Source: Nereocystis luetkeana
Taxonomy: Eukaryota > Sar > Phaeophyceae > Laminariales > Laminariaceae
NCBI GenBank assembly: GCA_031213475.1
Contig: JARUPZ010000030.1
Location: 5,015,661-5,079,660 of the forward strand
Direction: 5' to 3'
DNA length: 64,000 nucleotides
The notes under the pieces are model-generated. The model was not told the DNA's origin. It saw only the letters and a program-made list of their open reading frames with translations, and did not search any database. Made by a program: the position numbers and the translations under genes. Position 1 is the stretch's first letter, and each line of letters starts with the position of its first letter. This document shows positions 5,264 to 57,296 of the stretch, in pieces.

Positions 5264-5294
<31 letters not shown>

Positions 5295-26784: not shown

Positions 26785-27000
26785 CACAGATCATCTACCA
26801 GGTACAGATCATCGATCCCCACTCGATGATCTAGATATTCCAAGATAGATCTCTTCTACACGATTTTGTATCACTCGGTTCGTGTTGTCGAGTGGGACCC
26901 GCATAATCTGCATGTAGTGCATGCTTCCCGGGGTGGACATATACTATGCAGACCCTGCGCTACCCCTCACGACAACGGATGAGGAACCACTGTAGATGAT
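26785..27000 (-). repeat. Dispersed repeat D, copy 3
   Basis: Shares TTCGTGTTGTCGAGTGGGA and a GATGATCTAGATATT block with copy 1, in the same orientation. A TACCAGGTA palindrome sits at 26796-26804 near its edge. Confidence 0.55.
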
Positions 27001-27463
27001 CTAGATTATGCTGTCGGAATATTATATGAAACATTCGGCTGGGGGTTGATTTTGTCTCGTTTTGTGTACCCCAAAATATCGACTAAATTCGACCTCTACT
27101 GAGAAAGCGGGGATGGCCAATCTGAAGAGAATCAGAAGCTGCTGTCGACTAGGCACTTGGCTGATGCATCCGCTCTCTGCTAAGGCGCGCACCGGCCGAA
27201 GATATAAAGGCAGCACGCCTTAATAATGGCGACTGTATTTTCTCGTCCGGTGAAACATCTTGGGATTAGAGTCGCCTGGAAACCCGGGTATGACGGGTGG
27301 ATAAGATCCTCCTTGGCCTTGGAGTGGCGTAGCAATGGCTACGACTGTGTGAATCCATAGTTCCAACCAGCCATTATGTAGACACCCCACCCATAAGATG
27401 TCCCCGGAATCTTAAGGTTAGTTGTTGAAGAAGCAACAGTCGCTTCCGAGGTTCTGAACGTCG

Positions 27464-27690
27464 GACAGATCGTGATCTCGATAATCTAGTCCCTCGCGTG
27501 CCGTTATGAGACGCTGTGCAGTAGTATCTATCTGTATAGCGCAGATCCACCCCTGGAAACATGGCCCTAAATCCTGCAGGTTAATGCGGCACCCACTCGG
27601 CCACAGGAGCTAGATCATACAGATCAGGAAGATCAGGAAGACATCTGCTCTGAAAGATCTGGAGCCTCTGTCCCGGGGTGTGAGGACATT
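27464..27690 (+). repeat. Dispersed repeat D, copy 4
   Basis: Starts ACGTCGGACAGATCGTGATC and carries GCAGATCCACCCCTGGAAAC, CACCCACTCGGCCACAGGAG and CTAGATCATACAGATCAGG. It is the clearest copy of the family. The element codes for nothing recognisable. Confidence 0.65.
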
Positions 27691-27762
27691 ATCACTTCGG
27701 TTGGCGTTTGTGACCAAGCACGAGGAGGAGGCGTTTAGTGCGTCCGGTTCCGTTCCGAAGCC

Positions 27763-27886
27763 TATTACGGGGGACCATAGTTAATAGGACCAAATATTGT
27801 TAGTAAAAATGGTTAAATATGTAGTACCTGGTAGTTTTTTTATCTATCCCATAGGTCCTATATACTAACTATGGTCCCCCGTAATA
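27763..27886 (+). mobile_element. MITE-1 copy 1
   Basis: Terminal inverted repeats TATTACGGGGGACCATAG / CTATGGTCCCCCGTAATA with TA at both outer edges. The interior is ACCAAATATTGTTAGTAAAA then GTTTTT. It carries a TACCTGGTA insertion at 27825-27833 that sister copies lack. Confidence 0.92.
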
Positions 27887-27889
27887 TAA

Positions 27890-29640
27890 CCTTGCAGTGT
27901 ATACAAGTCACTGATGGATGCCTGCCTCGTCGGCGCACGCATCTGTCCGGGGTCAAAGTATTCTCGTATTTTCCATTACCACGTGTATGTATCGCCAAAT
28001 GAAGCTGTTTGGTTGTTGCCGTGCTGAGTGGAACCGGGAGAAGGAGCCTATGCCCCTCGAAAGCGCCACGCTCTTCTTGCGAATGTTCGTGACGGTACAC
28101 CGATCAACATCCCATGTTCGTCGGACCATACCAATCACAGCACCAGGTCCTGGTAAACTGCTGAATTCTGCTTTTTTTTACTTTCCAATTGTTCGTGGCT
28201 CGTTCTGATCGTGAATCTGCTTGCAGCCCGTGGTCGCAACTCAGGCTTTTTGTTCCGGATGGAACGCACATACATGAAACACACGCACCGGTACAAGGAA
28301 GAGGTATCATATGGTATGCTAAGCCTGGTGCACACACACGTATGCCCTTCAAGGTGTATCTACTAAGCTGTTGCCGTGATGCCTCTCATTCATGTTTCCT
28401 CTAGAAGAGTCCTGTTGTTGTAGTACCGTTATTCAGCGGATGAAAGACCCGAACAGGAGGGGGGCTCATCTCTTGACTAATTCCCCTTTTAATATATACT
28501 TCGAGGTGTGCCAACAAACGCCAGCTAAAAATGCCACGTCATCCCTCTCAAGCATTTGCAAATGCTGGAACCTGGGCCTTTGCAGGCTTCTCAGAGCAAT
28601 ACCACTACACTCAACCTGCCCTGACGAACCGCAGACGCAGAAATTTGGAAGATTCGTAGAAACATCGGTTTCCACGAACTAGAATGTAGCTTAATTAAAG
28701 ATGCGGCTCCTCAAAACCCGCTCACACACCTTTACCACCCTGCTATAGGCTACGAGTCCCCAGGAAAGGACCGCAAAGATGGGCGAAACGCGAAACCCAC
28801 AGCCTTTTTAAGGGCGGGCTCGTCAGACGCAAAAGCTACCAGTCCCAGTAACGGGTGAGAAGGGCGGCAAAGATGTACCTCTCAAATCACTAAACAAGAT
28901 ATCGCGACGTGCCCAACAAGGGGGGAGGGGGGGGGGGGGGGGGGGGGAGCGTTCAAAGCGACAGAAACACAAAAAAATGCACTGTGTCGCGGGACGGGCA
29001 GCGACAATACCCAGACCACCGCCGGCCCTGACCGAGGGGGGTGTCAGCCAAACGGAGAAGGGAAGAACATAAAAATCCCACAGTCCTATGCCACAATACG
29101 AGCACCCAGATTGCCCAGACCCCAGACCGCCCCCGGCTCTGAGCGGGCGGGAGGGCGGCAGGATGCAAAAAATTGGGCGTTCGCGTGTGACTACATAGCG
29201 GGTACGGGCGAAAACGCGTCGTAGGTTGAACACGACGCATCACAGTCGAAAACCTGACTAGAAATCCAGCAGGAGCGGCCGCAAAAACTGTCTACACGCT
29301 GGAAGAACGGTACGTACGTGTAGAAGTATGCGCACGCGCCGGGGTGGGCATCGTTCGCACCCCTGCGGTAACATATTTCCAAATCCTGGAACCTCGGCCT
29401 TTGCAGGGTTTCCAGGGCGACGCCATCACACCGCATCCCGGAACACTCGGAAACCAAGAAATACACAAATTAATACGTACCCATCATACATAAAAATTCA
29501 AACCGGAAAAAACTGGAAGTTCGCAATAATAGCAGGAATTCAACAAACGAAAAGAAACGGTTGGAGTGCACATCAGAGACGTTGGGGCTCCAGGTAATCC
29601 CAGGGTCAGCTACAGAGGGCTAGGGGGCCGACAGTATCGG
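27890..29640. other. Intergenic, low-information stretch with poly-G tract
   Basis: No credible gene. A G homopolymer lies at about 28,921-28,947. Two GC-rich segments (about 29,010-29,045 and 29,120-29,160) and two related stretches reading GGAACCT.GGCCTTTGCAGG (28,566 and 29,385) suggest old local duplication. Confidence 0.5.
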
Positions 29641-29649
29641 ACAAATATA

Positions 29650-30060
29650 GACAAAACAAAATGAAAAGAAAACAAGAAAGCCAAGAAAACGAAAAGATCA
29701 ACCCAGAAACGAAAATCAAACAGCCAATAATGCCAAAGGCAAAAAAAAAAAAAAACACGACGTCAATCCAAAGGAAAGAAGGCAAAGCAGACCTAAAAAT
29801 AAGAAATAAAAATATAAAAATAGGAATGCAAGCAAAACAAGAAAATAGGAGAAAACGAGAGAAACGACAACGAGCCTATAACAAAAAAAACAAGACAAAC
29901 AAGACAAACAAAGAAAACAAGAAAAACAGGATAATAAGCGAGAAAACGAGAAAAACAAGAACAAGAAAAACAAGAAAACTATGGATACGAAAAACAACAA
30001 AAACAAGAAAAAAAAGAAAACATACAAGGAAAGCAAAAGCAAAAGAAAACGAGGGGCGAC
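29650..30060 (+). repeat. A-rich, T-poor low-complexity block
   Basis: About 400 bp made mostly of AAAACAAG, AAACGAG and AAAGCAAAAG words, with very little T on the plus strand. It opens a 163-residue Lys-rich frame, which I regard as a by-product of base composition. Confidence 0.75.
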
Positions 30061-30249
30061 ACAGCGTACAGGATACCGAGGCTACCGTAACTTGCAATAG
30101 ATTCGCACAACAGCAGTGTAGCGATCGTTTTTCAGCGACTCATTTTTCTTGAGGGGAGGTTGCCAATGCCAAACAGGGTGAATCACTGATGTGATTTCGG
30201 AAAGTTCTGATCGAGAGCCTTACGAACATACCAGCACCTGTTAATATGC

Positions 30250-30391
30250 ACTGCTCTGTGGCGTAGCTTCGTGACCACAGAACTTGTATATCTTCTAGGA
30301 TTGAAGAATCGGCACGGACACTGGTTGTGCTGGATGTCGACGGGTAGAAAGAACGGTTTAATGTGAAGAACACACAGAACACACACACTGC
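30250..30391 (+). mobile_element. RTE-like LINE family 1, 3'-end fragment (copy E)
   Basis: Only the last 140 bp of the LINE: CTCTGTGGCGTAGCTTCGTG through GAATCGGCACGGACACTGG to GAAGAACACACAGAACACAC. It ends in the same CA-rich tail as the other copies. Confidence 0.85.
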
Positions 30392-30986
30392 AACTGTTCA
30401 ACGTTGGCACCCCCTCCGTTGTCGAGAAACGAGCACACCTACCTCTGTACCTCTGTGCGACACCAACAACGCGCTTTACGGTAACCCCCTTCCCCCCCCC
30501 ACCTACTGCGGTAGGCTCTACCACGGCGTGCAACGTTTTTGACGTCTGCCGCAGGTCCATGCCGACCATCAGCCGACATAGCCCTTCCTCGCCTGCATGG
30601 AGGGTATGAACCCACTGCCGGATGAAAAAACGTACCAGGGTAGTCAACATCGAGATACGCATTCTTCCTCAGGATATGCGTGTGTACTACCTCTCGTGTA
30701 ACCAAAGAAACCCATCGCGCTCTTCTTGGCCCTTTACCTGCACATATATACCAGGTATACTATTAAGATGTATTCCAAACAAAAAATCGAAGCTCGTGTG
30801 CATCCATACCTGGTAGATATTGGGCGCTTTCTCTTTGACGAAGCCCTACTATCGAAGTATACAACAAACTGTGTGTATACTGGTACAACTTCTGATATAC
30901 AGCAGTGTACTGGTACAGCACAACACTGATAAAAGTCTCACCCCATCACTCAAAAATTAACATCCCACCCCACCCCACCCACGTGC

Positions 30987-33404
30987 ACGATCAACGATTG
31001 ATATGTTGTTCGTCGTGCGCCGGCTGCAAGAGCTCGGACGACAGAGGAAAATCCCCTTATACGTGTGCTTCATCGATCTGCAGAAAGCGTACGACTCTGT
31101 CGACCGAGAGCTGTTATGGAAGGTACTCACACGCTTTGGCGTACCAACCAAGATGCTGAGAATTATCCGTAATTTCCACGATGGCATGCGGGCTCGCGTG
31201 CGTACTGATGACGGCGAGCTCTCGGAATGGTTTGGTGTCACGCAGGGGCTGCGGCAAGGCTGTGTACTATCACCGTTACTGTTCAACGTGTTCTTCGCTG
31301 CTGCGTTACACGTCGTACTAGTACGCTTCAGCCAAGACAAAGCCATTGTAAGGGATTTGGTCCAACTCTGGGAAGCTGGAGTAGTTCGAACAGGGAAGGA
31401 GGAGCCATTGGCGTGCGTGCGAAGGTCTGTATGGGGCATGTTGTACGCCGACGATGCAGGAATTGTCTCGAAGTCGGCTGAAGGGCTCGCAAAAATGATG
31501 ACAGTCATCGTGACTGTCTTCGAAGCAGCAGGCCTCACGGTGTCGGAAAAGAAGACTGAGACAATGGTCCTACAAACACCAGACCGGACAACCCTCGCAC
31601 CACCGCTCGTCATCGAAGCGGCAGGTCAGAGGTATAAGCAGACGACCCAGTTCTTATACCTAGGCGGCGTTATCCACGAAAACGCTGACCTCTCGCTCGA
31701 AATCGACCGACGGATCCGCCTCATGCGAGCATGCCTCAAACGGTTCGGCCCGGAGTTGTATGATAGGACGACCGCCCCCCTTAGCCTTAAAGTCCGAATG
31801 CTGAAGGCCGAGGTGATTGAGACCCTGCTGTACGGGTGCGTGACGTGGACCCTCAGAGCGGAACACTTTGCCAAGCTTCGAACGGCTCACCACCAAGTCC
31901 TGTTGCGAGTCATTGGCTTCCAGCGCCGACTTCATACTGACCATGCCACCCTCTCGTACGCGAAGGCCCTCAAGATGACACGTTGCGAGAGCATCGAAAC
32001 GACCATTCGTAAACGGCGGCTCTTCTTTGCGGGGGGCGTGGCACGGCAAAGCAAGGAGCGATTACCCAATCGGGTAATGCTCGGGATGATAGCCGGTGGG
32101 GAGAACCCGAGACCAGGCGGACAGTGTAAGACTTGGCATAGATGCATAGTCGAAGACCTTAGGGAGTTCCGAGCCACCGAAGGGTCAACGGAAGTTGCCC
32201 CCTTGGTGTTTGGAGTTGAGACCGCGTTGTGGCCCACTGCAGCCAAAAAGGTGGGGAAGTGGTACCGGGGGATCCTTGAAGCAGCCGAACGGTTCATGGT
32301 GAGGTGGCACGAGGCTGAGGCTGAGATGAGTAGACAGCGCCGCGCATCCGCCGTGGATGGTGCCCAAGGGAACGGGGGGGGAGGGGGCAACAGGAGAAGT
32401 GGCATAAAGCCCGACCGAGGGAATGCGGAGAGGGGGGGGAACAGGAGGGGTAGAAGGGAAACGGCGGTAGACGAAAGTAGGAAGGAGATGGCAGACAGGG
32501 TAGCAAGGCACCAAGTCGACTAGGAAGTAGAATATGACCATACTACTAGTGCTACCAACTGGTGCAGCTGGTTCGAACGTGGTCTTCCCTTGTCTTCTCT
32601 TTTAGTTTTGTTTTTTTTCTTTCTTGCGCTGACTCTCCGTGATTTTCATTTCATTTTTTCTCTTCCTCTTCCTTTTCTGATTGATAAGCCGTACTCAAGG
32701 AGCCGTGTGGCGTGGTTGGAAGACGAACCTGCTCTGCTCGGCTCGTATTGTCTGACGCCAAGGGGCTGGGCATAGTTGACGAACGCAGGGCGGAGACGGC
32801 AGTCTGGGTAGCAAGGTACCAGGCGGATTAGCAGGGAGAACCTGGCTATACTACTCGTACCACAAGCTGCTGCCGCCACCTGGAAGGTGCTTTGGGCTTT
32901 GGTCTGCCTGTTATTTCCCCTTTGTTATTTTTCCTTGTTACTTTCTCCTTGGTTCTTTGTCTTACTCTGTTCACAAGCAGTGGTGTTTTTTGTTTTTTTG
33001 TTATTTCTTCTTTTTTCCAGCTCGTTCTTTTTCAAGTGTTGGCCACCTCGCCTGCGGGGGGGGGGGCACGACAGATTGTTTCTCTTAGATTTTGCTTTCA
33101 TTTTTCTTCTTTTTATTTTTCGATTTGTCTACCTTGTTTTTGTTTTCTCTTTGATTGTTTCTTTTCGTTTCACTATTTCATAGATTGCGTATGTCGTGCC
33201 TGTCGTATCTACTAATAGTATGATGACATGGCTTGCATTGCCCACTGCAGTTCACACTGCACACGTGGCAACGTAGTATCTCTGTGGCGTAGCTTTGTGA
33301 CCACAGAACTTGTATCTCTTCTAGGATTGAAGAATCGGCACGGACACTGGTTGTGCTGGATGTCGACGGGTAGAAAGAACGGTTTAATGTGAAGAACACA
33401 CACA
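30987..33404 (+). mobile_element. RTE-like LINE family 1, 5'-truncated (copy A)
   Basis: Starts abruptly inside the reverse transcriptase at CACGATCAACGATTG (equivalent to 47597 in copy C) and ends in GAAGAACACACACAC. An uninterrupted 506-codon frame at 31003-32523 holds [33 protein letters not shown] and the catalytic YADD. The 3' UTR (32524-33404) includes a run of G at 33057-33066. A 6 bp insertion (CTAATA) near 33207-33218 is absent from copies B, C and D. The element is otherwise close to copy C, so both are young. Confidence 0.93.
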
Positions 33405-33516
33405 CACGTTAATTCGCCCAGACTACGATACGAACTCATTATTTCACTCTCCGTGGACGATGACCGCCGAAGACAAAAAAGACAAAAAAAGTGATTTATA
33501 CCACTCCAGGGGCAAA

Positions 33517-34074: not shown

Positions 34075-34589
34075 GCCGCACTCACTGCTCGGTGCTGACC
34101 GTGAGGTGGCAACTGTCTCCCCGGCGGAATTTTCTGCGTGGCGGTACAGCGGAGAAGAGATGAAGGCGTTTTAGTTCGAGAAGCGCCAAAGAGCTGATTA
34201 GTTGTACATTTTGTGTAGCTTTCGCGGATACTGTTCTCATTGTGCTGCATGTAACGGGTGCGGGCTGTGAAGAAAGTTGACCCTACATACAGTACAGTAG
34301 TAGTGCATAATACAGTATTAATAGTGTTCTGTGAAGGGGTGAAGGGATAGACGGATAGACCACCACTGCTGGGCTATTGGGCAGTGTTTTGTGAAGGTGC
34401 AGACCACTGCGCGGGCTGCTGGCTATTATTGGCCAAAGCTCAAGCGACCACTTGACTCAGGGTGAAACTCTTCAAGTCGTGGGTCGGCCTTTTCTTATCC
34501 CATCCCCACTTTTATTGTAATACTGTGTAGGCTTTATATTAGGTCTACCCCTCCCCCCCCCCCTACATTGTATACCTGGTAATATGTAA

Positions 34590-35350: not shown

Positions 35351-35356
35351 ACCATT

Positions 35357-35890: not shown

Positions 35891-36035
35891 CCTCGCTATT
35901 ATTTGTGTAGGTAATAGGAAGGCTCCTGGTTGATGTTCGGTGTGATTCGTCGCTACTTGCACAGAACCGAACAGCACCGAACCGCGCAGCAAGATTATAT
36001 TGGCACACCATAAAATGACGCCGACCGTATGCGTT

Positions 36036-36950: not shown

Positions 36951-36999
36951 CACGGGGCTTCCATCAGGATGAAACAGCGGGTAACCGTTTTTTTTGTAC

Positions 37000-38095: not shown

Positions 38096-38204
38096 TATTA
38101 CAGGGGACCATAGTTAATAGGACCTACGGTATACATAAAAACCTATATATTTTACCATTTTTACGAACAATATTTGGTCCTATTAACTATGGTCCCCCGT
38201 AATA
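38096..38204 (-). mobile_element. MITE-1 copy 2
   Basis: TATTACAGGGGACCATAGTT at the left, AACTATGGTCCCCCGTAATA at the right. The interior is in reverse orientation relative to copy 1. It lies directly before the endonuclease region of LINE family 2. Confidence 0.92.
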
Positions 38205-41200: not shown

Positions 41201-41750
41201 TAAGGTGGGGCAGCGTAGTTGTGAAAATTATGGAAGGATATAGGGGGAAACCAAGAAGAGTTGGTGTCCGCCGGGAAGTTTGGGGGGTACAAGGCAGATT
41301 AGAAGAAATGATAGAAATAAGGGAAAGGCTAGCGCTAAGAAACAAGGTGGAATCGGAAAAAACACGTAGATATATACGGGGGGTTGAGAGAAGGAATAGG
41401 AATGAAAACGTATTTTCACGGCCCAATGGGCTTCGCGAAAAAGCTGAACTGCGATTTCGTGTAGAGGACCTGGACCTGCCAGAAAGAAGAAAGAGGTATA
41501 CCAGTAGCCGGGAGGAGGAGGAAGTAGATGCACTGATTTTGTGCCCGTGTGACAAAGCAATAGGGAGTAGAACTCACATACAGTAGTCGGAGAATGTGAA
41601 ATATACAAGGAGGAACGGGATGTATTAGAAGAGGAGATGAGGGAAATAGACGAATGTGACATGGAGGAGTTTGATACACTAAATAGCATCGAGAAAACGA
41701 CCGCTATCCTAGGAGATAGATGGTGGCAGCCACAGTCGGACAAAGAGGAT
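38205..41750 (+). pseudogene. Decayed non-LTR retrotransposon (LINE family 2)
   Basis: Broken pieces in order: an endonuclease-like start (LRIESWNVCRFATEERK; DIVVIQGSWE) at 38,221-38,350, GNIYMPP near 38,570, then reverse transcriptase parts. These are GAEQIVNEFMKYGGEG and YAPRRWREGVVVNLF (39,850-40,010), GVAPGCALSPNLFN (40,410-40,450), and FADDFVRISETPEGLQKQ with TYLGVDISK (40,540-40,770). A basic tail runs to about 41,580. Several frameshifts and stops separate them, so it is not functional. The A+T-richer base usage and absence of sequence match to family 1 mark a separate, older lineage. Clade not assigned. Confidence 0.82.
39284..39381. mobile_element. MITE-3 copy 2, inside LINE family 2
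   Basis: 98 bp palindrome: TTAACCCTTCTAGAACCGCA at the left, GGGGTCCTAAAAGGGTTAA at the right, so TTAA is duplicated at both edges. It interrupts the coding region of the decayed LINE and is therefore younger than that LINE. Confidence 0.88.
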
Positions 41751-42742
41751 GGGGAAAATATTTAGCAAAAAGTTTCTACCTGGTACCTGGTATGTAATTA
41801 GTGGAGATAACGTAATGAGCGTCCAATTGTTGGGGGTGTCTCTATTAGGAGTAGGAACGGTGCTCCGTCTCGAAAGGGATGCGCGGTTAATGGTCAAATG
41901 ACCAAGGCAAGCAACAAATAAATGAGTACGCCCCCCCCCCTCCCCCCGTTGAAAGCTTTAAAGGCTCTATCTAGGCGATGCTCGTGGAACCACCTGTTCG
42001 GCGCGGGATCATTTCGCCGTACCAAACGTGAGACCGCCTCGACGCGGGAGTGGGGCAGACGAACTGCCGTCTGTGTCCACGGTGCTGTAATATGACTCAT
42101 GTCGCCATAATAAACACAGAGTACACATGATAACAACTGAAGCATATCGTACACCTCAAAAAAGAAAATGTGAAATCAGCGTACGTATACTACTTACTGT
42201 AGGTATCACTAAAAACGAGGGACCGGAATCCGCACACGCAGAGAAAAATCAGTGTACGTATGGCCTCTCTGGTAAGCTGAAAATCAGGCAAAAACAGTCG
42301 GAAGCTAGACAAACTACAGAAGACAAATCCCGGTGGACCTCGCGAGTTGCAAGCCAAAAACAGGTACGATGTGAGGCTGGCCAATGGCAGGACTCGTGGC
42401 GTGTGATCTTTACTTGTTTTTAGTGTGTTGTGATGTGGGAGAGAAGGCAAGGGTACCAGTGATGATGATCCACAAAAGAAGCGTGACACAGGTGTCTTTG
42501 CTTGGCCAAACTCAGACGCAGTTCGTGAGACGTTCTCTTTTATTATGAGTGTGCGGCTTGCCCGAAGAGGGCAAGAGACGAGTGAGCAAGGAGGGGGGGG
42601 GGGAAGCGGCTGGTTCTTGAAGACAGAAGTATGATCTGTCTTCAACCGGCTACAATCTACTGGCAAGGGGGCACGCGTCACCCTCAACTGGGGGCACACG
42701 CCACCCTCAACTTCAAGCGTAACATCCCGTAGAACCTCAGGT
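41750..42742. other. Intergenic, nothing recognised except TACCTGGTA palindromes
   Basis: Two overlapping TACCTGGTA palindromes lie at 41,777-41,792 and C and G homopolymers near 41,931 and 42,592. No credible frame. Confidence 0.5.
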
Positions 42743-42756
42743 ATGAAGATACTATG

Positions 42757-45046: not shown

Positions 45047-45980
45047 CGTAGGATACTGTGCCGCGCTTTTGTTCTGGAGAGTTCTTCACTTTCTGTTAGT
45101 TATTTATTACATTTGATTAGAACAACACTACACATTGTCGGATGGCAAGCATGATAATAATATAATATAAATAGTAACTGTACGGACAGATCATTTTTTT
45201 TTGCCCTATGCTATGCTTCCTCATTCAGGATGATGTGTACGACCTGGCGATCAGTCGTACCGGTACATCTACTGGCGGAGATAACGTGCATGACCCACAC
45301 ACCTACTGGCGGAGATAACGTGCATGACTTGGTACATACCCATCGAACACGGTTCTCTTGTTTGAACCGCTTAGTTGTACAATCGTACCAGTTCTTCTTA
45401 ACCCCGACGCCGAGGAGTTCATCCCTCAGGCGGGACGGGTACATCACCACAGCAGAGAGCGCTACGTGGGCAGCCGGTGGAGTGGAGAGGCTGGCCACAG
45501 CGTGGGTATGCATGCACGACAGGAAGGATGGGATTGTCGGCGTGGGTTGGGACGGCTGCACCCAGCCAACGGAAACCAAGGCGCGTACCGGGCTACGAAA
45601 CGGAGAGCCACTTTCGCCATAGAGAAAAAAAAGAAAAAAAAAAGGAAAAAAAAAAAGAAGGAAGGCGGGGACGAGCCTCACGTCGGCTGGCAAAGAAAGC
45701 AGCACGCGAGGCTCGTAAGAGACAGAAGGAGGCACTTGTGACGGTAGCGACCTACAATGTGCGCACCCTGGCTGTAAAGGGGAAGAACGGGTACGGACAT
45801 GACGAGCGGGTACTGGCGAAGGGACGGTAACTCGGCTGTGACTTCATTGGCCTGCAAGAAACTCGGAGGTCCGGCAGCACGACGTTCCGTGCGGCAGGGT
45901 ATCGTGTTTTCTGTTCAGGACAGGAAACAACAGCCACCAGGCAAGGGCTGTACGGAGTAGGCCTAGCTGTCAAGGAATCG

Positions 45981-47270
45981 TTGTGCAGTAAGTCTGTGTA
46001 TACTCATCAGTTCGTTGACGAGCGGCTAATGTCTATGCGCTTTGAGCTGGCTGGCAAATGCGAGGCAGTCAATTTCGTCGTTGCGTATGCTCCAACTGAT
46101 TGTACCAAGGACGCCGAACTGACACGTATTTTCTGGCAGAAGCTGGAGTACTTGGTGGAAAAAATCCCGACGAAAGAGTGTCTGTTTGTACTGATGGATG
46201 CCAACGCGCGAACTGGACAGAGGAAGAAAGGGTGCGGTGATGATGAAAGCAGAGTGCTGGGAGCGTATGGACGTGATGTTCGTAACGATAATGGCAGACG
46301 GCTCCTGTCGTTCGCCACCAATTGCAAGTTGGCTCTCACCAACACGTTTTTCAGCACGCGCAAGGGTGGGATATCGCATACTTACAACGGCACCGGCCCG
46401 AATGACCGTAAGCGGATTGACTACATCCTAACCCGTCAAGTCCATCGACCTAGAGTACAAGATGCGAAAGTCGTCCCACAGCCTCCTGCCCCAGCTAAGG
46501 CTGACTCAGACCACAACATCTTGTATATCAAAGTCCGACTCGGTGGTCATTTTGCGCCCAACAGACAAATACGTAGACCGACGAAACGCCGAGAGTTCGA
46601 CAGGCAGCTTTTTATGTCCGATGGAAATTGTCGTGAACGAGTAGTCTCCAGGATCATCTCCACTCTCAACCAGCCTATCCAGCCCCGTAATACGTCTGGT
46701 ATGGTTGAGATTTTCACTACGGCTGTTATTGATGCGGTCGAAAAAGAGGTACCACCCCCTGCACGTCGCCACCGCAGACATGGATGGTGTGAGTCTGCCG
46801 AAACCTTGGCCGCATTCATGCCAGCATGGACAGCGAGGGAGGATGCACTACAATTCTTGCGTGCCCACCCCCGGGACAGAACCGCGTGGAAGACCCTGAG
46901 ATCTGCGTGTGCGAACCTGCAGAAGGTGATTGCCGCAGGACTGCATGCGTACTTCGAAGCGTACCTTGCCGAAACCGAACGACTCCTAGCGAACAACGAC
47001 CAAAGAGGCTTTTACAAGCACCTTAAGAGTACGGTAGGATTGGAAGGGACTAAAGCGAGGAGCGAACAGTTCATTAGGGACGAGGATGGCACGATCCTAC
47101 GGGATAAGGTGCGAATTCGTGAACGATGGGCGGGGTTTTACCACAAACTCTTGAACACGAAGTCGCTGAAACTCGATCCCACGATCGTCGACCTCTTGCC
47201 ACCGCGACCGCCTAAACTGTCGCTTGAAGATGAACCATCCATAGACGAGATGACCGAAGCACTTAATTAA
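45981..47270 (+). pseudogene. LINE endonuclease and linker frame of copy C
   Basis: A 429-codon open part of the LINE ORF. The AP-endonuclease-like core has FVVAYAPTD, LFVLMDANARTGQ, LTNTFFSTRKGGISHTY, RKRIDYIL and the SDH motif (KADSDHNILYI), the usual order in LINE endonucleases. The linker runs to [13 protein letters not shown], where the frame ends because TTAA has become TTAATTAA. Dropping one TTAA would read [16 protein letters not shown] into the RT frame. Confidence 0.88.
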
Positions 47271-47274
47271 GGGG

Positions 47275-49131
47275 ATGTCGAATTGGAAAGCTGTCGGGCC
47301 AGATGGTCTCCCGGTCGAACTCCTAAAAATCGACCACCCGGCATTCGCCCAGCGCTTTCACAACATCCTTGTCAATGTTTGGTTAACAGGAGAAGTCCCT
47401 CAGCAATGGAAAGATGCGATCATCAAGGTCCTTCACAAAAAGAAGGATCGAACTGACTGCAACAACTATAGAGGGATTTCGCTTGTTGCCCACGCAGGCA
47501 AAGTGTTGTTGAAAATCGTCGCGTCCCGCCTCAGCAACTACTACTGCGAGACCGAGGAACTACTCCCCGAGGAACAGTGCGGCTTCCGCCCCGCACGATC
47601 AACGATTGATATGTTGTTCGTCGTGCGCCGGCTGCAAGAGCTCGGACGACAGAGGAAAATCCACTTATACGTGTGCTTCATCGATCTGCAGAAAGCGTAC
47701 GACTCTGTCGACCGAGAGCTGTTATGGAAGGTACTCACACGCTTTGGCGTACCAACCAAGGTGCTGAGAATTATCCGTAATTTCCACGATGGCATGCGGG
47801 CTCGCGTGCGTACTGATGACGGCGGGCTCTCGGAATGGTTTGATGTCACGCAGGGGCTGCGGCAAGGCTGTGTACTATCACCGTTACTGTTCAACGTGTT
47901 CTTCGCTGCTGCGTTACACGTCGTACTAGTACGCTTCAGCCAAGACGAAGCCATTGTAAGGGATTTGGTCCAACTCTGGGAAGCTGGAGTAGTTCGAACA
48001 GGGAAGGAGGAGCCATTGGCGTGCGTGCGTAGGTCTGTATGGGGCATGTTGTACGCCGACGATGCAGGAATTGTCTCGAAGTCGGCTGAAGGGCTCGCAA
48101 AAATGATGACAGTCATCGTGACTGTCTTCGAAGCAGCAGGCCTCACGGTGTCGGAAAAGAAGACTGAGACAATGGTCCTACAAACACCAGACCGGACAAC
48201 CCTCGCACCACCGCTCGTCATCGAAGCGGCAGGTCAGAGGTATAAGCAGACGACCCAGTTCTTATACCTAGGCGGCGTTATCCACGAAAACGCTGACCTC
48301 TCGCTCGAAATCGACCGACGGATCCGCCTCATGCGAGCATGCCTCAAACGGTTCGGCCCGGAGTTGTATGATAGGACGACCGCCCCCCTTAGCCTTAAAT
48401 TCCGAATGCTGAAGGCCGAGGTGATTGAGACCCTGCTGTACGGGTGTGTGACGTGGACCCTCAGAGCGGAACACTTTGCCAAGCTTCGAACGGCTCACCA
48501 CCAAGTCCTGTTGCGAGTCATTGGCTTCCAGCGCCGACTTCGTACTGACCATGCCACCCTCTCGTACGCGAAGGCCCTCAAGATGACACGTTGCGAGAGC
48601 ATCGAAACGACCATTCGTAAACGGCGGCTCTTCTTTGCGGGGGGCGTGGCACGGCAAAGCAAGGAGCGATTACCCAATCGGGTAATGCTCGGGACGATAG
48701 CTGGTGGGGAGAACCCGAGACCAAGCGGACAGTGTAAGACTTGGCATAGATGCATAGTCGAAGACCTTAGGGAGTTCCGAGCCACCGAAGGGTCAACGGA
48801 AGTTGCCCCCTTGGTGTTTGGAGTTGAGACCGCGTTGTGGTCCACTGCAGCCAAAAAGGTGGGGAAGTGGTACCGGGGGATCCTTGAAGCAGCCGAACGG
48901 TTCATGGTGAGGTGGCACGAGGCTGAGGCTGAGATGAGTAGGCAGCGCCGCGCATCCGCCGTGGATGGTGCCCAAAGGAACGGGGGGGGAGGGGGCAACA
49001 GGAGAAGTGGCAGAAAGCCCGACCGAGGGAATGCGGAGACGGGGGGGAACAGGAGGGGTAGAAGGGAAACGGCGGTAGACGAAAGTAGGAAGGAGATGGC
49101 AGACAGGGTAGCAAGGCACCAAGTCGACTAG
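47275..49131 (+). CDS. LINE reverse transcriptase frame of copy C
   Basis: 618-codon frame. It starts [18 protein letters not shown], then [31 protein letters not shown], motif [18 protein letters not shown], motif [21 protein letters not shown], motif [12 protein letters not shown] and [13 protein letters not shown], typical of RTE-like LINE reverse transcriptases. The C-terminal 120 residues ([13 protein letters not shown], then a Gly/Arg-rich tail) have no known domain I can name. All catalytic Asp residues are present. The open frame is recent but is cut off from its endonuclease by a frameshift. Confidence 0.92.
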
Positions 49132-50070: not shown

Positions 50071-50149
50071 TATTACGGGGGACCTATGATACACATAAAA
50101 ACCTATATGTTTCACCATTTTTACTGACAATATTTGGTCCCCCGTAATA
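50071..50149 (-). mobile_element. MITE-1 copy 3, internally deleted
   Basis: Ends TATTACGGGGGACC and GGTCCCCCGTAATA are intact, but both inner arms are shortened (79 bp against about 109). Confidence 0.88.
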
Positions 50150-50773
50150 TACTACGGCTGTGGTATCGAAGGTAGTGGTTGTTTGCAATCGGTTTTACAG
50201 TTCGTACTACAAGTATATAAAAATAATAATATCAGGTACCTGGTACCCGTTGTGAACACCACGCATCGTGTAAAACCGACTGAATTCTGGCGTACTCGTA
50301 GTGAACCCCACGCATCGTGTAAAACCGACTGAATTCTGGCCAACATCATAATGATGAGGTACTCTTACGTACATTTGACCTAGCAGCAGTGTACAACAAG
50401 CAGTTCTGCCTGCAGTAGTAGTATAGTCTAAAGTAAAAGTATTCGTTATTACTATCTGTTGTACGTGCAGACTCCCTGTGTAAGTACATATACAGGTACA
50501 CACCGTACAAATATTTTGTGAAGCAAAGCTGCTGCAATATTGACCGTAGTAACTGCTGTACTTCTTTATTACGAGAGGCTGGACGACGATGGGGAGAAAA
50601 AACAACACAACAAGACGCAGCACGATTGATATTTACCTGGTACATATTTACAGCAGCAGCAGCAGTAGCACACACACCCCATCCATTCAGATTTTTCGAG
50701 ACAAAATCTCACACCCCCGTTCCGGAAGAAGATTTTGATCCATGAATAAAAAAGCACAATATAACCATACTTC
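50150..50773. other. Intergenic with a short direct repeat
   Basis: CGCATCGTGTAAAACCGACT followed by GAATTCTGGC occurs twice (50,263 and 50,312). Three TACCTGGTA palindromes fall in or next to this stretch. No gene is credible. Confidence 0.5.
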
Positions 50774-51646
50774 CTACCTGGTAGTATTATAACACAAACC
50801 GCCGCCGCACCTGTTCCCGTCGTGCACGAGTGCTGGTTCCCTGCCCATGCATACCCTAGCTCCACCAGCTGACACCCCAGCCAAGACAGGGAAAAAATGG
50901 CATGCCACGACACCCAGCACGACCCCTGCAAAAACCAGGGACAGGATCAGTCCCCAGAAGCAGCGGGACTCCAAGGGATGGATGAGGGCGGCGGTGGCGC
51001 GGCCGTGCGTGCTGCCTATCGCTCTAGCAGGAGCACGCCCCCCCTCCTGCCTCCCCACCTTCGCAGCAGGCTCTGCCCCGTCCACAGGGCCTGCTCCTGC
51101 TCCGAGTTGGTGCGGAGCCACCGCCAAGCCATCGTCCGCTGACGGTGCACCATCCACCAGATTGACAGTAGTAGTATCAGACGCGCTCCCTGGCTTTTCT
51201 CCTGATGATGACGATGATGATGATGATGATGATGATGATGAAGATGATGGGGCCGGTTCGACCTCCGCTTGCTGGGGGGGTGTCCCTTCCTCCTGTTGCC
51301 CGCCCCCACCCTGCTCGACGGGCTCGCCGATCGTATCTCCTGCCCATTTCAACAGGTCTACTCCACTGCGGAGGACGTTGCCGGCCAATCCGATGATAAA
51401 CCCCTTTCCTCCGCCGTGCTTCTTGTTCTTCTTTTTTTGTTGTTTTTGATGTTGATCGTCTCTGCCCCTGCTGCAGAATTTGCCGCTGCACCGTCCGCCA
51501 TATCCTCCTTCCTCTGCCGGCTGTTGGCTGCTGGGACTGGTGTCTCGTCTTCTTCGAAGCGAGTTGGTGCTGGGGGCAAGGGGTGGAGGTCTGGATATAT
51601 ATCCTCTGATGTAAGAAATAGCCAACGGGTGCAATCTTTTAATCAA
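50774..51646 (-). CDS. Possible membrane protein with Ser run, function unknown
   Basis: 290-codon frame. An N-terminal basic segment (QKQQKKKNKKHGGGKG) is followed by GFIIGLAGNVLRSGVDLLKW, an acidic and Gln-rich stretch, a run of 15 serines encoded by an ATG/GAT-type microsatellite (51,205-51,245), an Ala/Gly-rich linker, and one strong hydrophobic segment (FWGLILSLVFAGVVLGVVAC) near residue 235, then a Cys-containing tail. The layout suits a single-pass membrane protein. No domain is recognised, the start is uncertain and an intron is possible, so it may be a chance frame. Confidence 0.35.
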   Translation of the reverse strand: MIKRLHPLAISYIRGYISRPPPLAPSTNSLRRRRDTSPSSQQPAEEGGYGGRCSGKFCSRGRDDQHQKQQKKKNKKHGGGKGFIIGLAGNVLRSGVDLLKWAGDTIGEPVEQGGGGQQEEGTPPQQAEVEPAPSSSSSSSSSSSSSSSGEKPGSASDTTTVNLVDGAPSADDGLAVAPHQLGAGAGPVDGAEPAAKVGRQEGGRAPARAIGSTHGRATAALIHPLESRCFWGLILSLVFAGVVLGVVACHFFPVLAGVSAGGARVCMGREPALVHDGNRCGGGLCYNTTR

Positions 51647-52036
51647 TGGGAATGACCTACAGCCATTTTTTGCTTACAGCCAATGAGAATGTGACTACAG
51701 CAGTAGGATAGTCATTTCAATTGCTTTTTACTGGTGGTTCTCTAAGGGGGTGGGGGCTGACGGCAGGGATGTATATACATGGAGGGCGATCTGTGGATGG
51801 AATCGTCTGTATGTCCTGTGTGAAACAGCAGCCTACGAATACTCGTATCGGGTATATTTTCTCAGGACCGGATAAAGACCAACAAAGATCGTATATATAT
51901 TCGTAGGAAAAAATATTTTAGGACACGACGCGAGGCGGATTCAACGGGACGGTGAAGGGTGGATGGATGGAGGACGACTTGGTACAGCAGAGTGGTACAA
52001 GTACTGGTATCATAATCCAGCAGAACTCGTAGTCGT

Positions 52037-52884
52037 GTGTGTGTGTTCTTCCGTTCTTTCTACCCGTCGACATCCAGCACAACCAGTGTCCGTGCCAATT
52101 CTCCAATCCTATTAATAGAAGAGATACAATAAGTTCTGTGGTCACAAAGCTACGCCACAGAGATACTACGTTGCCACGTGTGCAGTATGCACTGCAGCAG
52201 TGGGCAATACAAAGCCATGCCATCATACTAGATACGACAGGCACGACATACGCAATCTATGAAATAGTGAAACGAAAAGAAACAATCAAAGAGAAAACAA
52301 AAACAAAGTACCTGGTAGACAAATCGAAAGAGAAAAAGAAAAAAAATGAAAGCAAAAACTAGGAGAAACAATCTGTCGTTCCCCCCCCCCCGCAGGCGAG
52401 GTGGCCAACACTTGAAAAAGAACGAGCTGGAAAAAAGAAAATAAATAAATAACAAAAACACCACTTTTTTTTTTTTTTTTTTTTTCTTCCCATTCATTAT
52501 CGTCGCACATCTTCTTCTCTCTCTCCTTCCAACTCGTTACTCAGATCCGGGGTCACATAGCAGGCTCTTCTACCCCCTTCCCGCTACGGTACACTGCTTG
52601 TAAACAGAGTAAGACAAAGAACCTAGGAAAAAAGTAACAAGGAAAAATAACAAAGGGGAAATAACAGGCAGACCAAAGCCCAAAACACCTTCCAGGTATA
52701 GGTGGCGGCAGCAGTTTGTGGTACGAGTAGTATAGCCAGGTTCTCCCTGCTAATCCGCCTGGTACCTTGCTACCCAGACTGTGCCGTCTCCGCCCTGCGT
52801 TCGTCAACTATGCCCAGCCCCTTGGCGTCAGACAATACGAAACGAGCAGAGCAGGTTCGTCATCCAACCACGCCACACGGCTCC
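52037..52884 (-). mobile_element. RTE-like LINE family 1, 3' UTR fragment (copy D)
   Basis: Reverse-strand 3' UTR only, from the CGGCTCCT end near 52,882 to the CA tail near 52,037. Compared with copies A-C it carries several small insertions (52,110-52,117 TATTAATA; 52,309-52,317 TACCTGGTA; TATAGG near 52,697) and a 126 bp SINE-like insertion at 52,465-52,590. Confidence 0.88.
52465..52590 (-). mobile_element. SINE-like insertion with poly-A tail inside LINE copy D
   Basis: Read on the minus strand: GTAGCGGGAAGGGGG, AGAAGAGCCTGCTATGTGAC, then AAGAAGATGTGCGACG and a 21 bp A run. Removing it restores exactly the CACCACCACTGCTTG of copy B, so the borders are exact and no target duplication is seen. 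Confidence 0.85.
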
Positions 52885-53001
52885 TACTACAGAGCAGTAG
52901 TATATACCTGGTACGAGTACCTGGTATCTGGTAACTGGTGCATCACAGCAGTATTATGTACCTTGACCATTTATATGTCATTGTTCCTAGCGGCCAATAT
53001 C

Positions 53002-53083
53002 GACCATCTGCCGGAGCGGTCTATCGGGTGGCGTTCAGGTCGTCATGTATTCGTACTCGTGGGTTCGAATCCCACGGTGGTCA
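53002..53083 (+). tRNA. tRNA-Leu (CAG anticodon), copy 1
   Basis: 82 nt type II tRNA. Acceptor GACCATC pairs with GGTGGTC (one G-T). D stem CCG/CGG. Anticodon stem TGGCG/CGTCA with loop TTCAGGT (CAG, reads CUG). Long variable arm with stem GTA-TTCG-TAC. T arm GTGGG-TTCGAAT-CCCAC. No encoded CCA. A run of T (53,090-53,097) is a good Pol III terminator. Confidence 0.93.
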
Positions 53084-53890
53084 AAAACCTTTTTTTTCGA
53101 GACCTGGGCGTTTTTTTTTTTTGCTGAAACTGAAACAACTTGTCCACAGAGCGTTCAGAAATATTCACAACCAACTGAAAAAACGGCTCGCACAGACCGG
53201 CAGTACGATTGTATGTACTGCTGTATTATACCTCGCATACATTCTTCACACCTCGCATAAAAGGGAGCACCCAACGATGTTACAGAGTTAGGCGTCAAAG
53301 CGAAAAAAAATCGTAACATTATAATACCGGTACGATGTGTTGTTACTACAGTACGTTGACATTCGATGAAAATCGACGAGCAGTGTGGGGATGCTGAACC
53401 CTATGCGCGACAAAAATAAAGGCACGCACCGGGTGGGGGAAGGGATGACACCTGTGACCACAGCTTGTCCAGGAGATCGCTGAGGGTAAAACCTCTCCTA
53501 CGAGTTAGGCTAGAAAGTAAAAGCGATGATTGAAAAAAAAAAAAAGTACGTTGCAACTACTTTCTCGATTTGGCGATATCATATTAATAGTAGTATTATT
53601 ACGTATTTTGTGTTGGCATTGTGTTGGCGGGCGATCGCATAACATTATGTCATACAGAGAGTGTTACCTTTTGATCCCGTATCGACCGCAGTATAAGTGT
53701 CACGGTGTTAGGGTATAGGCAGTCTACAGCGAGTATATTAGCACTATCTATGTTACTATTATTTTTCTTGCCATCCGACAATGTGCAGCATGATCTTCTC
53801 AACATGGATCACTCATAACTTTCCCGAAAGAAGAAAACCTCGGAAACAAAAGGAAACCCATCATCTATGTTATTAATAGTGTATGAATGC

Positions 53891-54300
53891 TACCAGGTAT
53901 AAGGATTACCCCGTGGGCTGGGCATTCGATTGATCTTTCACCCCCCCCTCTCCCTACTACTGGTAGGAAGGTGACACCTTCACAATTGACGTCGTCGAGG
54001 ACACGGGTTCGGATCTCAGTTCGAACGTTTCTTTTATAGAAGCGTTTTTGCGCGTGCGGTCTCTAAAGACATAAATAACAGGTACGATATCTCCCTCCGG
54101 TTCCCCAGGTATATATTGAATCGAAGCGGGTAGGTCAGCGGACGGCCGTATACGGCACCGACGCACCAAACATCTCGCCGCTCAGAGGGGGGGAAAGAGT
54201 GTTACAAGGATTATACCCTGGGCTGGGTATTCGGTCGATATTTACCCCACCCTATAGCTCAGTTAGCTCAGTAGGTGTAACACCTTCGCATTATTAGTGG
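53891..54300 (+). repeat. tRNA-like remnants in a duplicated segment
   Basis: Two related stretches (about 53,900-53,960 and 54,205-54,260) share GGGCTGGG.ATTCG.T. Box-A-like TAGCTCAGTTAGCTCAG is at 54,246-54,262, and a T-arm-like GGGTTCGGATCTC at 54,004-54,016. Neither folds as a complete tRNA; they look like tRNA or SINE debris. Confidence 0.4.
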
Positions 54301-54810
54301 AACTCCTAGTAGTAGTGGATATCGAAACACACCGTGAAGGGATAACGCACTACATGTACATTGCCCCATTGAATGTTAACACTATTTAATATGATACCGT
54401 ATTAGCGACATCAGCCCGTAGAGTGTAACGTTATGTTAGTGTGGCAGCGGAATTCATACTTGCTACCGTGTACGCTTTAGACGGATAACGTACGTACATG
54501 GCCCATTGAACGACATTTAGGTTAGTGTGTTGGCGGAATTCCTAAAATAGTGTGGCTATCGTAACACAGAACAACATCGTAACACGCCAGCGGGATAACA
54601 TACATATGACCGACGATACCATTTCACGTTTAAGTCACCGTATCAGCCCCGCGGCAGCAACCCGGATAGAGCGACATTTTGGCAGGGTGTTGTTACCGAA
54701 AGTCTTGCTACCATAACATGCATGCGTCAAACGGATATAACGTACGTACATGATCGATAAAACACTAGCTTAATGTGTTATAGTTCGTACGAAATTTATG
54801 TACAGTTACT

Positions 54811-54838
54811 TAGTAGTAGTAGTAGTAGTAGTAGTAGT
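54811..54838. repeat. AGT trinucleotide run
   Basis: About nine perfect AGT units, in gene-free sequence. Confidence 0.9.
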
Positions 54839-55086
54839 AACACAAGTTAGCAGATAACGTACATCCACAATCTAACATCCACAATACGTTGTTACTCCTC
54901 CTGCTGCTGTGTTAGCTCGTACGTGCGAGTTTCAGATTACGTTATAGATAGATGGATAACATACTGCTGTGTAGTATTAGTATTAATAGTATAATAGTGT
55001 TTCAGACAGTGAGAATGGAGAGGACCTATAACATAGTGGCGTTTTAGACGATGTCGTAATCTTGATATATATATGCCCGTGGAGAA

Positions 55087-55168
55087 GACCATCTGCCGGA
55101 GCGGTCTATCGGGTGGCGTTCAGGTCGTCATGTATTCGTACTCGTGGGTTCGAATCCCACGGTGGTCA
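55087..55168 (+). tRNA. tRNA-Leu (CAG anticodon), copy 2
   Basis: Identical over all 82 nt to the gene at 53,002, with unrelated flanks on both sides. A TTTT at 55,178 can terminate Pol III. Both copies keep every stem, so both are probably functional. Confidence 0.93.
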
Positions 55169-55635
55169 GAGACACATTTTGTTTTCCAAGAAATTTGGCG
55201 TAGAACGAAAATCCACAAAATAATATTATTATAACCATGCACACGTTTACACACAAACGACCACATCATACATCTACACAGAAGTATATCTATGTGTTCT
55301 GATGCCCAACAATGTTTAATCAAGGCGTGGGGATGGAGCTTGGATGCAGTTTAGGATTTAAGGATAGAACGTAATGAGAAGGAAGGAGCAAATACAGCAA
55401 ATAAATAGAGTAGACGAGCTGAAAGTTGGCACGGAAGGGAGGTAGACTTGGTGCTTGGGTTTCCTTTTGTTTCCGAGGTTTTCTTCTTTCGGGAAAGTTA
55501 TGAGTGATCCATGTTGAAGATCATGCTGCACATTGTCTGATGGCAAGAGGAATAATAAATGTTTAATCAAGTGATCTTTGATGCCCAATTTATCATAGCA
55601 TCATAGCAATTCAGAGTGGAGCAAAATTTAATGCT

Positions 55636-55762
55636 TTCACCGGGGATCATAGTAAATAGGACCAAATATTGTTAGTAAAAATAGGTAAATGTACTTCGAA
55701 GTATACCAGGTAGGTTTTTGTGTGTAATATAGGTCCTATTTGCTGCTGTGGTCCCCCGCAAC
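55636..55762 (+). mobile_element. MITE-1 copy 4, diverged
   Basis: Ends are worn (CACCGGGGATCATAG and GTGGTCCCCCGCAAC). The interior ACCAAATATTGTTAGTAAAA is intact. An extra segment at about 55,691-55,712 contains TACTTCGAAGTA and TACCAGGTA, both absent from the other copies. Confidence 0.85.
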
Positions 55763-56369
55763 AAAACAAAAAACAGCTTTTTTCTCCGACACACATCAAA
55801 ACGCATGACATGTTTCTCCCTGCGCCGGCACGCCCGCCACCTTCTTATGTCGCAGGTTGGCAAACTGTAATTCCGGCAGCTTCTTGTGTCGCAGGATGGC
55901 AAAACTGTAATACAACAACTTGTGCTTGCGCCGTGCTTGTCTTCGTGGCCACAGCGATTCGCGTCTCCTGTATTGCAGCGGTGCGGTCGCTGCTTTTACT
56001 TTTTGGTGAGAGTATAGGGTTTCCCCGATATTTTCACCCAAGAAATAAAGGGGAAAAAAAGTTTGCTGGATTTAAACACCCCGCCGCTCGGATTTAAATC
56101 CTCGTCGTTGCAGGCTCTTCACAAACCCCCCCCCAAGAAAAGGGAACAACTGGTTTACAAAGCATCAAGTTGCCTAGAGCACGACACGCGTTCACGCCAA
56201 TGCACGTGCGCAGAATGGCAGGGAAGAGGGGGGGGTCGAAAGGGGGACGAGAGGGGAGGGGGGGGGATGGGGGGGGGGGGGGGAAACACGCCCCTTTATG
56301 TCCCTTTTTGGTTCAATTTCTTCCTCTAGGTTTATTCTTGCTCTTTCCTTTTTTCCCGTTTGCCCCTCC

Positions 56370-56614
56370 TAGTTTCATTCTGATCGGAGAGCGTTTTTCC
56401 CATAATTTCCAAACTATGGAAATAATTGGAGATATGTATCAATATACGGAGGCGTTCTGTCACTATTCGTGAAATTCTCCATAATAAGCAAAAAAATAAA
56501 GTTCGTTAGATTTCTCATGTTTGGAAAAAAAAATCAGGAAAACATGGAAGATTCAAAAATTGCGCGAAAAAAATGTGGGAATTATGGGAAGCTCTTCGAT
56601 AAGAAACACCCTTA
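56370..56614 (-). mobile_element. MITE-2 copy 2
   Basis: 245 bp, inverted relative to the copy at 34,908. Ends TTTCATTCTGATCGGAGAGC and CTCTTCGATAAGAAACACCC, bounded by TA. The interior matches with CGGAGGCG and CACTATTCGTGAAATT. Confidence 0.85.
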
Positions 56615-57160
56615 GTGTCTCTATCTATCTCCTTGTTGCTTTTTGCTATCTGCTTTTTGCTTTGCTTCGCCGCCTTCGTCTTCCTTTCCATTTTTTGTCT
56701 ATTAGTTTCTTTTTGCCTCCCTGGTGTTCTTGGTAACGGAGTAAGTATGTTTTTGTTGTTCTTATCGCTGTTCTAAACCCCTCGCGTAGCTTGCTTGAAT
56801 CGTGTTTTTCTCTCTCTCTTCCCTTTCTGGTTTTCGATTTTTTCGATGTCGATTTCGATTTTTCGACGTCACGTTGTTTTTTCATCCTGCCTATTTCTTC
56901 TGGGAAGTGCATGCCGTCTTCTCGGTTCCTGTGGCATCTTGTACAGCGTACCGCATGTATACGTACGTGCGCGGACCTCACTTTTTATTTTTTGGGGTGT
57001 AGATCTGCTTCAGTTATCATGTGTATTTTTCTTCGCTTGTTTCTATTTTTTTACCGAGGGATTCTTCCACTCCAGAGTAATTGAATGTTGTTGTTTGGAT
57101 ACACTGCTGTCGGACGTGAACTTGGAATCACGTGGCCTACCGATATAGAGAAGAGCTGTA

Positions 57161-57167
57161 TACCTGG

Positions 57168-57207
<40 letters not shown>

Positions 57208-57208
57208 G

Positions 57209-57248
<40 letters not shown>

Positions 57249-57296
57249 TATATATATATATAATATATACCAGGTATATATATATATATATATATT
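57161..57296. repeat. TA dinucleotide array interrupted by TACCWGGTA palindromes
   Basis: Long (TA)n runs contain TACCTGGTA at 57,161 and 57,203 and TACCAGGTA at 57,268. The interruptions keep the TA register on both sides. Confidence 0.9.

Follow-up and report, generated by a model that had tools for sequence, protein, structure and literature searches.

The palindrome TACC(A/T)GGTA occurs in 20 exact copies within a 64,000-nt stretch of the brown alga Nereocystis luetkeana (contig JARUPZ010000030.1, positions 5,015,661 to 5,079,660; hereafter the window), and each copy very probably marks a site at which a TA-targeting, cut-and-paste DNA transposon of the Tc1/mariner/pogo kind left a scar after excision and repair. 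A first-pass annotation of the window had listed 20 positions and read them as excision scars of an unseen transposon. An exact-match scan returned all 20 of them and no further copies. The random expectation of about 0.5 copies that had been given there agrees with Markov models of orders 1–4, which yield 0.29, 0.43, 0.41 and 0.71 copies; at orders 5 and 6 the expectation is 3.2 and 8.3, because models of those orders learn the motif itself. Among the 512 odd palindromic 9-mer families in the window, TACCWGGTA (W being A or T) ranks first with 20 copies, compared to 8 for the runner-up. The copies at 57161, 57203 and 57268 lie in (TA)n as had been described, the first of them at the edge of the tract.

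We counted the motif in the whole genome (465,085,209 bases in 1,987 contigs), a check that had been proposed with the annotation, and found 182,395 copies compared to 1,744 for the reversed pattern, so the enrichment is present genome-wide, with a density of about one scar per 2.5 kb. For closer analysis we used an unselected sample of 264 kb, composed of the window and 20 stretches of 10 kb (L014–L033) drawn from contigs 1–20 at one fixed coordinate, for exact and neighbour counts and for the target logo freed of near-pairs. Stretches L010–L013, chosen for holding a scar pair, and L034–L046, chosen for transposase matches, were added for the paralog tests, the variant counts (352 kb) and the scan for donor pairs (window plus L010–L046, about 0.35 Mb). 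The scan for TA-X-TA words covered 314 kb (window, L014–L033 and L037–L043), and the target logo with exact pairs removed and the per-site rates were calculated for the window, L014–L033 and L037–L046. In the unselected sample we observed 97 copies of TACCWGGTA compared to 2.35 expected, and 114 one-mismatch neighbours compared to 52 expected, from which it follows that the scars are subject to decay and that some must be old; within the window itself, barely any enrichment is seen for most of these neighbours. An unbiased scan for TA-X-TA words (X = 2–12 bases, simple repeats masked) placed CCWGG (108 versus 2.8 expected) and TTAA (73 versus 1.7) at the top. The motif, one of these top two words, is genome-wide rather than local.

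Three copies had been described as lying in repeats whose sisters have a TA instead. This holds cleanly for the copy at 52309, a 7-bp insertion (CAAAGTA-CCTGGTA-GAC, inserted bases in the middle) that is missing from three long interspersed nuclear element (LINE) copies in the window. At 27825 and 55704 the motif is indeed not found in the sister copies of a miniature inverted-repeat transposable element (MITE-1), but in both cases the change goes beyond a plain gain of 7 bp at a TA: the difference at 27825 amounts to about 9–10 bp, a second palindrome stands alongside the motif at 55704, and neither copy passed the strict paralog test. In this test, 7 bp were deleted from each testable scar and ungapped paralogs were sought across the junction. 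An ungapped paralog was available for 6 scars, and every one of these had the TA-only form (5 only this form, 1 both forms), whereas among 1,204 control words of the form TA-N5-TA the TA-only form was found for 8 of the 180 with a paralog (6 only this form, 2 both; Fisher, 6e-8). Scored as an indel against empty TA sites, as the annotation had suggested, the motif therefore behaves as an insertion. A looser test gave 18 scars with some junction paralog, namely 9 with ungapped empty-like, 3 with ungapped filled-like and 7 with gapped paralogs; one of the three filled-like scars is also empty-like and the similarity between the other two comes mostly from the scars themselves. These results support that the motif copies are insertions at TA and not ancestral sequence, and in the 6 testable scars a TA stands on either side of the remnant, as in Tc1/mariner/pogo footprints. 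A functional palindrome, that is a protein-binding or regulatory site under selection, would be palindromic and could be very frequent as well, but it is extremely unlikely given that some of the roughly 180,000 copies lie within LINEs, MITEs and (TA)n, that the testable cases arise as insertions with TA duplication, and that copies decay, as the neighbour excess indicates.

The flanks of the scars support a symmetric, transposase-like integration target with the A+T-rich palindromic preference around TA that is typical of Tc1/mariner/pogo elements. In 198 flank ends, with exact pairs removed, we observed C/T at +1 in a fraction of 0.80 (0.60 at all TA sites), A at +2 in 0.45 (0.27), T at +3 in 0.43 (0.26), T at +6 in 0.51 (0.25) and A/T at +7 in 0.79. 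The preference persists and reads TA-T-A-T in the 108 ends left after near-pair removal, in which neighbours with at most 3 mismatches from a scar were taken out and 86 of 194 ends were lost. Per 1,000 sites, scars are most frequent at ATAT (14.8) and ATAC (13.6), followed by GTAC (8.5), ATAG (5.8), CTAC (5.0), ATAA (3.7), CTAG and GTAA (1.7 each), CTAA (0.8) and TTAA (0). Overlapping copies had been taken for repeated hits at one site. The copies at 41777 and 41784 do share a TA, and such pairs (TACCWGGTACCWGGTA) occur 15,917 times genome-wide compared to 2 for the reversed pattern, although part of them look like tandem duplications (see below). A rough estimate from the per-site counts predicts 4,400 pairs (182,395 × 2 × 0.012). 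Read inward from its own TA, a scar (C-C-W-G-G-T-A) suits the target preference at +1, +3, +6 and +7, which would help to explain the pairs above this number.

An exact palindrome cannot show direction while variants can, and we therefore used the variants to read the polarity of the element ends. Genome-wide, TACCAGGGTA occurs 11,422 times (control 409), while its mirror TACCTGGGTA is 7 times rarer (1,578; control 362); in 352 kb we found 12 copies of TACCAGGGTA versus 0.86 expected and none of the mirror (TACCCAGGTA/TACCTGGGTA) versus 0.86. TACCAGTA was observed 40 times versus 10.3 expected and its mirror TACCTGTA 18 times versus 14.1. Enrichment was also found for TACCGGTA (CC+GG, 21 versus 5.2) and more weakly for TACCGTA (CC+G, 83 versus 42.6), so that the clearly enriched joins are CCAG with nothing, with G or with GG, and CC with GG. 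Such polarised variants can be explained as joined remnants of an end 5'-CCAG and its complement CTGG. The cut originally proposed, 3 nt inside an element with CCA...TGG ends, is not supported because its predicted products are not prominent (TACCATA 53 versus 41.6, TACCATGGTA 2 versus 0.33) while TACCAGTA and TACCAGGGTA are enriched. Judged by these variants, an overhang of 4 nt (CCAG) or 5 nt (CCAGG) would fit better than CCA, the two fitting equally well. On contig 1 (1304145–1308362) a tandem array carries TACCAGGGTA every 528 bp in at least 7 copies, with an eighth 1,040 bp before it, and some of the 11,422 TACCAGGGTA are therefore shared copies.

The second of the two top words, TTAA, matches an element that can be seen. 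TATTAATA occurs 93,112 times genome-wide compared to 10,689 for the reversed pattern, and CTATTAATAG at 52109 is a 6-bp insertion in the LINE, whose sisters read CTAG; this scar type was also seen in L018, L021, L024 and others. TA-only paralogs were found for 8 of 10 testable TATTAATA copies, the other 2 having only filled ones, compared to 45 of 227 control words (19 of them only empty), and G follows at +1 in a fraction of 0.49 (background 0.21). The ends of MITE-1 are C-TA-TTACGGGGG...CCCCGTAA-TA-G, with C preceding TA in 18 of 26 ends. Since they read TTAC..GTAA, TTAA is what the two ends would leave, and the scar indeed combines the MITE-1 end bases (TTAC/GTAA) with the C..G target flank. 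A 4.3-kb element shares this end design (TTACGG): two copies, 99.8% identical over 4,292 bp and with the ends TA-TTACGGAGGCTC...GAGCCTCCGTAA-TA, are by this identity a recent element, which is probably a long relative of MITE-1. It represents the most repeated family with matches to the DDE_1 profile, although its own DDE_1 match is marginal (E about 0.01). In the L037 copy an open frame of 437 aa has a DDE_3 match at 4.2e-12, DDE_3 being a transposase domain of the Tc1/mariner/IS630 kind; a search of solved structures with this frame found nothing. We infer that an element like the 4.3-kb one moves MITE-1. The comparison of ends and scar supports TATTAATA as a positive control, a second scar type that can be tied to a real TA-targeting element in the same genome.

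This control also bears on another explanation, according to which CCWGGTA is not a remnant of a larger element but a 7-bp mobile or templated insertion in its own right, e.g. copied in during break repair at TA. While it agrees with the clean insertion at testable sites and with the fact that no donor was seen in the window and L010–L046, we consider it very unlikely: the polarised variants and TACCAGTA are natural as joined end remnants, the target logo is symmetric and of the integration type, the TTAA scar points to excision, and no enzyme is known to mobilise a transposon of 9 bp.

Several observations weigh against our reading of the motif as an excision scar. The ungapped paralog test was applicable to just 6 of the 127 scars, and the number 182,395 takes in copies multiplied within repeats and is not the number of excisions. 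The mirror variant TACCTGGGTA is still about 4-fold over its control, which calls for some decay or slippage. In the window and L010–L046, longer joins are all but missing (TACCAGTGGTA once, TACCAGCTGGTA not at all), and plain fill-in is therefore not the rule. Tc1/mariner elements stagger their cuts by 2–3 nt, so that 4–5 nt would be unusual. Among the matches listed we counted by hand 59 pairs on the + strand (23 A-A, 17 T-T, 14 A-T and 5 T-A), of which 40 have the same centre, where half would be expected under independence; tandem duplication of 7 bp is therefore the probable origin of part of the pairs. Some of them look like same-centre tandem copies, as would be expected if TACCWGG-like units had spread by slippage or microsatellite expansion, but as a general explanation this has next to no probability: pairs number 15,917 among 182,395 copies, so that most copies stand alone, slippage of a CC or GG run gives no reason for the 7-fold bias of TACCAGGGTA over TACCTGGGTA, and the empty paralogs speak against it.

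To these points belongs the donor. A scan for TACC arms gave no donor, nor was an element with TA-CCAG...CTGG-TA ends found in the roughly 0.35 Mb read (<0.1% of the genome); a donor search had been proposed by the first-pass annotation. Altogether 115 TACCAG/CTGGTA pairs lie 60–9,900 bp apart, of which 6 reach at least 10 of 20 matching bases (two perfect, then 12, 11, 10 and one more). The two perfect pairs were ruled out as donors, being inverted copies of other repeats, and since the TACCTG control (119 pairs) reaches at most 11 of 20, the other matches are at chance level. Scans for terminal inverted repeats with any TA-flanked arms gave no donor among the matches listed. If the ends are recognisable, the number of donors in 0.35 Mb would, as a rough upper bound, lie below about 3. 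Searching the whole genome with the Transposase_1 profile gave no match, nor did this search match in any control genome; the DDE_3 profile, which matched in 3 of 14 control genomes, gave no match either. As the L037 frame does match DDE_3, the latter negative is false, and neither result is evidence of absence. The DDE_1 profile gave 46 matches at E<=1 (28 at E<=0.001), and 15 of the 46 are covered by the 13 regions read (L034–L046). The ends could be read for the TTACGG family (L037, L038), for a family in L039 (about 417–4728, TA-CGCGACAGCACTTAAG) and for the CAGTACC family, a DDE_1 family of 2.0–2.2 kb in L040, L044 and L045 with the ends TA-CAGTACCGGCC; no clear terminal inverted repeat was found in L034–L036, L042, L043 and L046, and L041 is an inverted duplication. 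All readable ends start with TTACGG, CGCGAC or CAGTACC and none with CCAG. In a single case, the L044 copy of the CAGTACC family, a CAGTACCGG element interrupts a CCAGG scar at its TA. Scans of viral contigs yielded nothing of use.

That scars outnumber visible donors would also be expected if germline-limited, TA-bound elements were removed in the life cycle by programmed excision, so that the assembled tissue shows scars only, and in the accessible text on the ciliate Blepharisma TA-bound pogo MITEs are removed in this way (PMC9942856). The PiggyBac-type excisases described in the same text are mostly seamless, whereas the present scars are not, and scars inside repeat copies with scar-free sisters are as in ordinary transposition. 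We regard this explanation as hardly probable.

Taken together, the observation of the first-pass annotation is confirmed and its interpretation is partly supported; the reading as excision scars is well supported by insertion at TA, target preference, polarised variants and the link between the TTAA scars and a real element. The following course of events would be consistent with the data. As the target preference suggests, the element would insert at a TA, best in RTAY with symmetric A+T-rich surroundings (ATATAT, for instance), and duplicate it. The variants point to a staggered excision cut inside the element that would leave 3' tails 5'-CCAG (or CCAGG) on both flanks. The tails might then anneal over CAG/CTG with one central A:A mismatch, gaps would be filled and the mismatch settled in favour of either strand, with CCAGG or CCTGG as the outcome between the TAs, while occasional trimming of a tail would give CCAG, CCAGGG or CCGG less often. 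The scars seen in such numbers would pile up in this way, their TAs resembling the preferred target and seeming to be re-hit above average, with a donor that may be rare, degraded or unassembled. More tentatively, and with somewhat less than even confidence, we propose a single TA-targeting lineage with an unusual stagger of 4 or 5 nt (CCAG/CCAGG), a ghost transposon whose more than 180,000 scars would be among the most frequent dispersed sequences of the genome, each a favoured next target, while its donors are too few to be seen in 0.35 Mb. Transposon footprints are usually sequenced singly in reporter assays, and our narrow literature searches found no report of a comparable genome-wide scar set. 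With about 180,000 scars of one kind and a large second set, it becomes possible to read how an unseen transposon cuts, how its sites are repaired and which targets it prefers, and to compare excision traffic with extant copies. The scars also call for caution, since a strongly enriched palindrome can be a scar and not a regulatory site.

The features are collected in the table below. Long open frames of the LINE at 45831–49131 encode domains of an endonuclease and a reverse transcriptase. TACTTCGAAGTA (55692–55703) is another TA-palindrome-TA word, found 3 times versus 0.02 expected in 314 kb. TACWGTA is in excess too (120 versus 41 in 314 kb), with TA-only paralogs in 8 of 20 cases (control 14 of 163) and 12 of 20 without. 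An array of GCTGTCTACAGACAGC-like palindromic units lies at 3400–5200 of L017.

Table. Scars, variants and related elements (window positions unless a stretch is named)
Feature	Position	Strand	Basis or remark
Scar TACCAGGTA	1409..1417	.	exact match
Scar TACCAGGTA	13537..13545	.	exact match
Scar TACCAGGTA	26796..26804	.	exact match; one empty-like paralog in L032 (74% identity), looser test only
Scar TACCTGGTA, centre of MITE-1 copy	27825..27833	.	exact match, sister comparison
Scar TACCAGGTA, flanked by ATATA and TATAC	30749..30757	.	exact match
Scar TACCTGGTA	30807..30815	.	exact match
Scar TACCTGGTA	34573..34581	.	exact match
Pair TACCTGGTACCTGGTA with common TA (41777 + 41784)	41777..41792	.	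exact match
Scar TACCTGGTA	50237..50245	.	exact match
Scar TACCTGGTA	50634..50642	.	exact match
Scar TACCTGGTA	50775..50783	.	exact match
Scar TACCTGGTA, 7-bp insertion in LINE 3' region	52309..52317	.	5 empty paralogs
Cluster with two exact scars (52905, 52918)	52905..52926	.	exact match
Scar TACCAGGTA	53891..53899	.	exact match
Scar TACCAGGTA, centre of decayed MITE-1, adjoins TACTTCGAAGTA	55704..55712	.	exact match, sisters
Scar TACCTGGTA, edge of (TA)n tract	57161..57169	.	exact match
Scar TACCTGGTA, within (TA)n	57203..57211	.	exact match
Scar TACCAGGTA, within (TA)n	57268..57276	.	exact match
Variant scar TACCAGGGTA, polarised class	30633..30642; also 36997, 58126	+	word counts
Variant scar TACCAGTA	41499..41506	+	word counts
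TACTGGTA, reverse complement of TACCAGTA	6288, 30878, 30908, 40452, 52002, 53958		
Second scar type CTATTAATAG in LINE, sisters CTAG	52109..52118	.	8 empty paralogs
MITE-1 copy, ends C-TA-TTACGGGGG...	27763..27886	+	
Other MITE-1 copies	38096-38204, 60622-60730, 60740-60848		
Decayed MITE-1 copies	50071-50149, about 55639-55767		
4.3-kb element copies	L037 about 1340-5609; L038 about 1817-6086		

Among known systems, mariner elements of the Mos1 type have ends CCAGGT... and 3-nt tails. They share with the present case the TA target and an end that begins with CCAGG, whereas the one-sided TACCATA expected from them is hardly enriched here (53 versus 41.6). The footprint of Sleeping Beauty, a fish Tc1 element, is explained by 3' tails of equal sequence that pair with an A:A mismatch. 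Its excision scar is given as TAC(A/T)GTA in the accessible part of PMC3432063, and like the present scar it is a short palindrome with an A/T centre and a TA on both sides; it differs in having 3 nt (CWG) in place of 5 (CCWGG), and here about 180,000 natural copies are present and the donor was not found. For Tc1/mariner elements in general, the available text of PMC8151067 describes that the non-transferred strand is cut a few nucleotides inside the element, which leaves 3' overhangs and, after non-homologous end joining, footprints. MITE-1 and the 4.3-kb element likewise use a TA target and their palindromic scar CTA-TTAA-TAG is also an insertion (8 of 10 testable), but unlike the donor of CCWGG they are visible, with ends TTACGG, target CTAG and scar TTAA. 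In Ectocarpus almost 12,000 Mariner-Tc1 copies are reported, and the families include, as here, an autonomous element (4.4 kb) accompanied by a short non-autonomous one; neither "footprint" nor "excision" is used in the accessible portion of that report (PMC12477816). By analogy with these systems, the present scar would work like a Tc1/mariner footprint with two more bases, and its donor may belong to that group.

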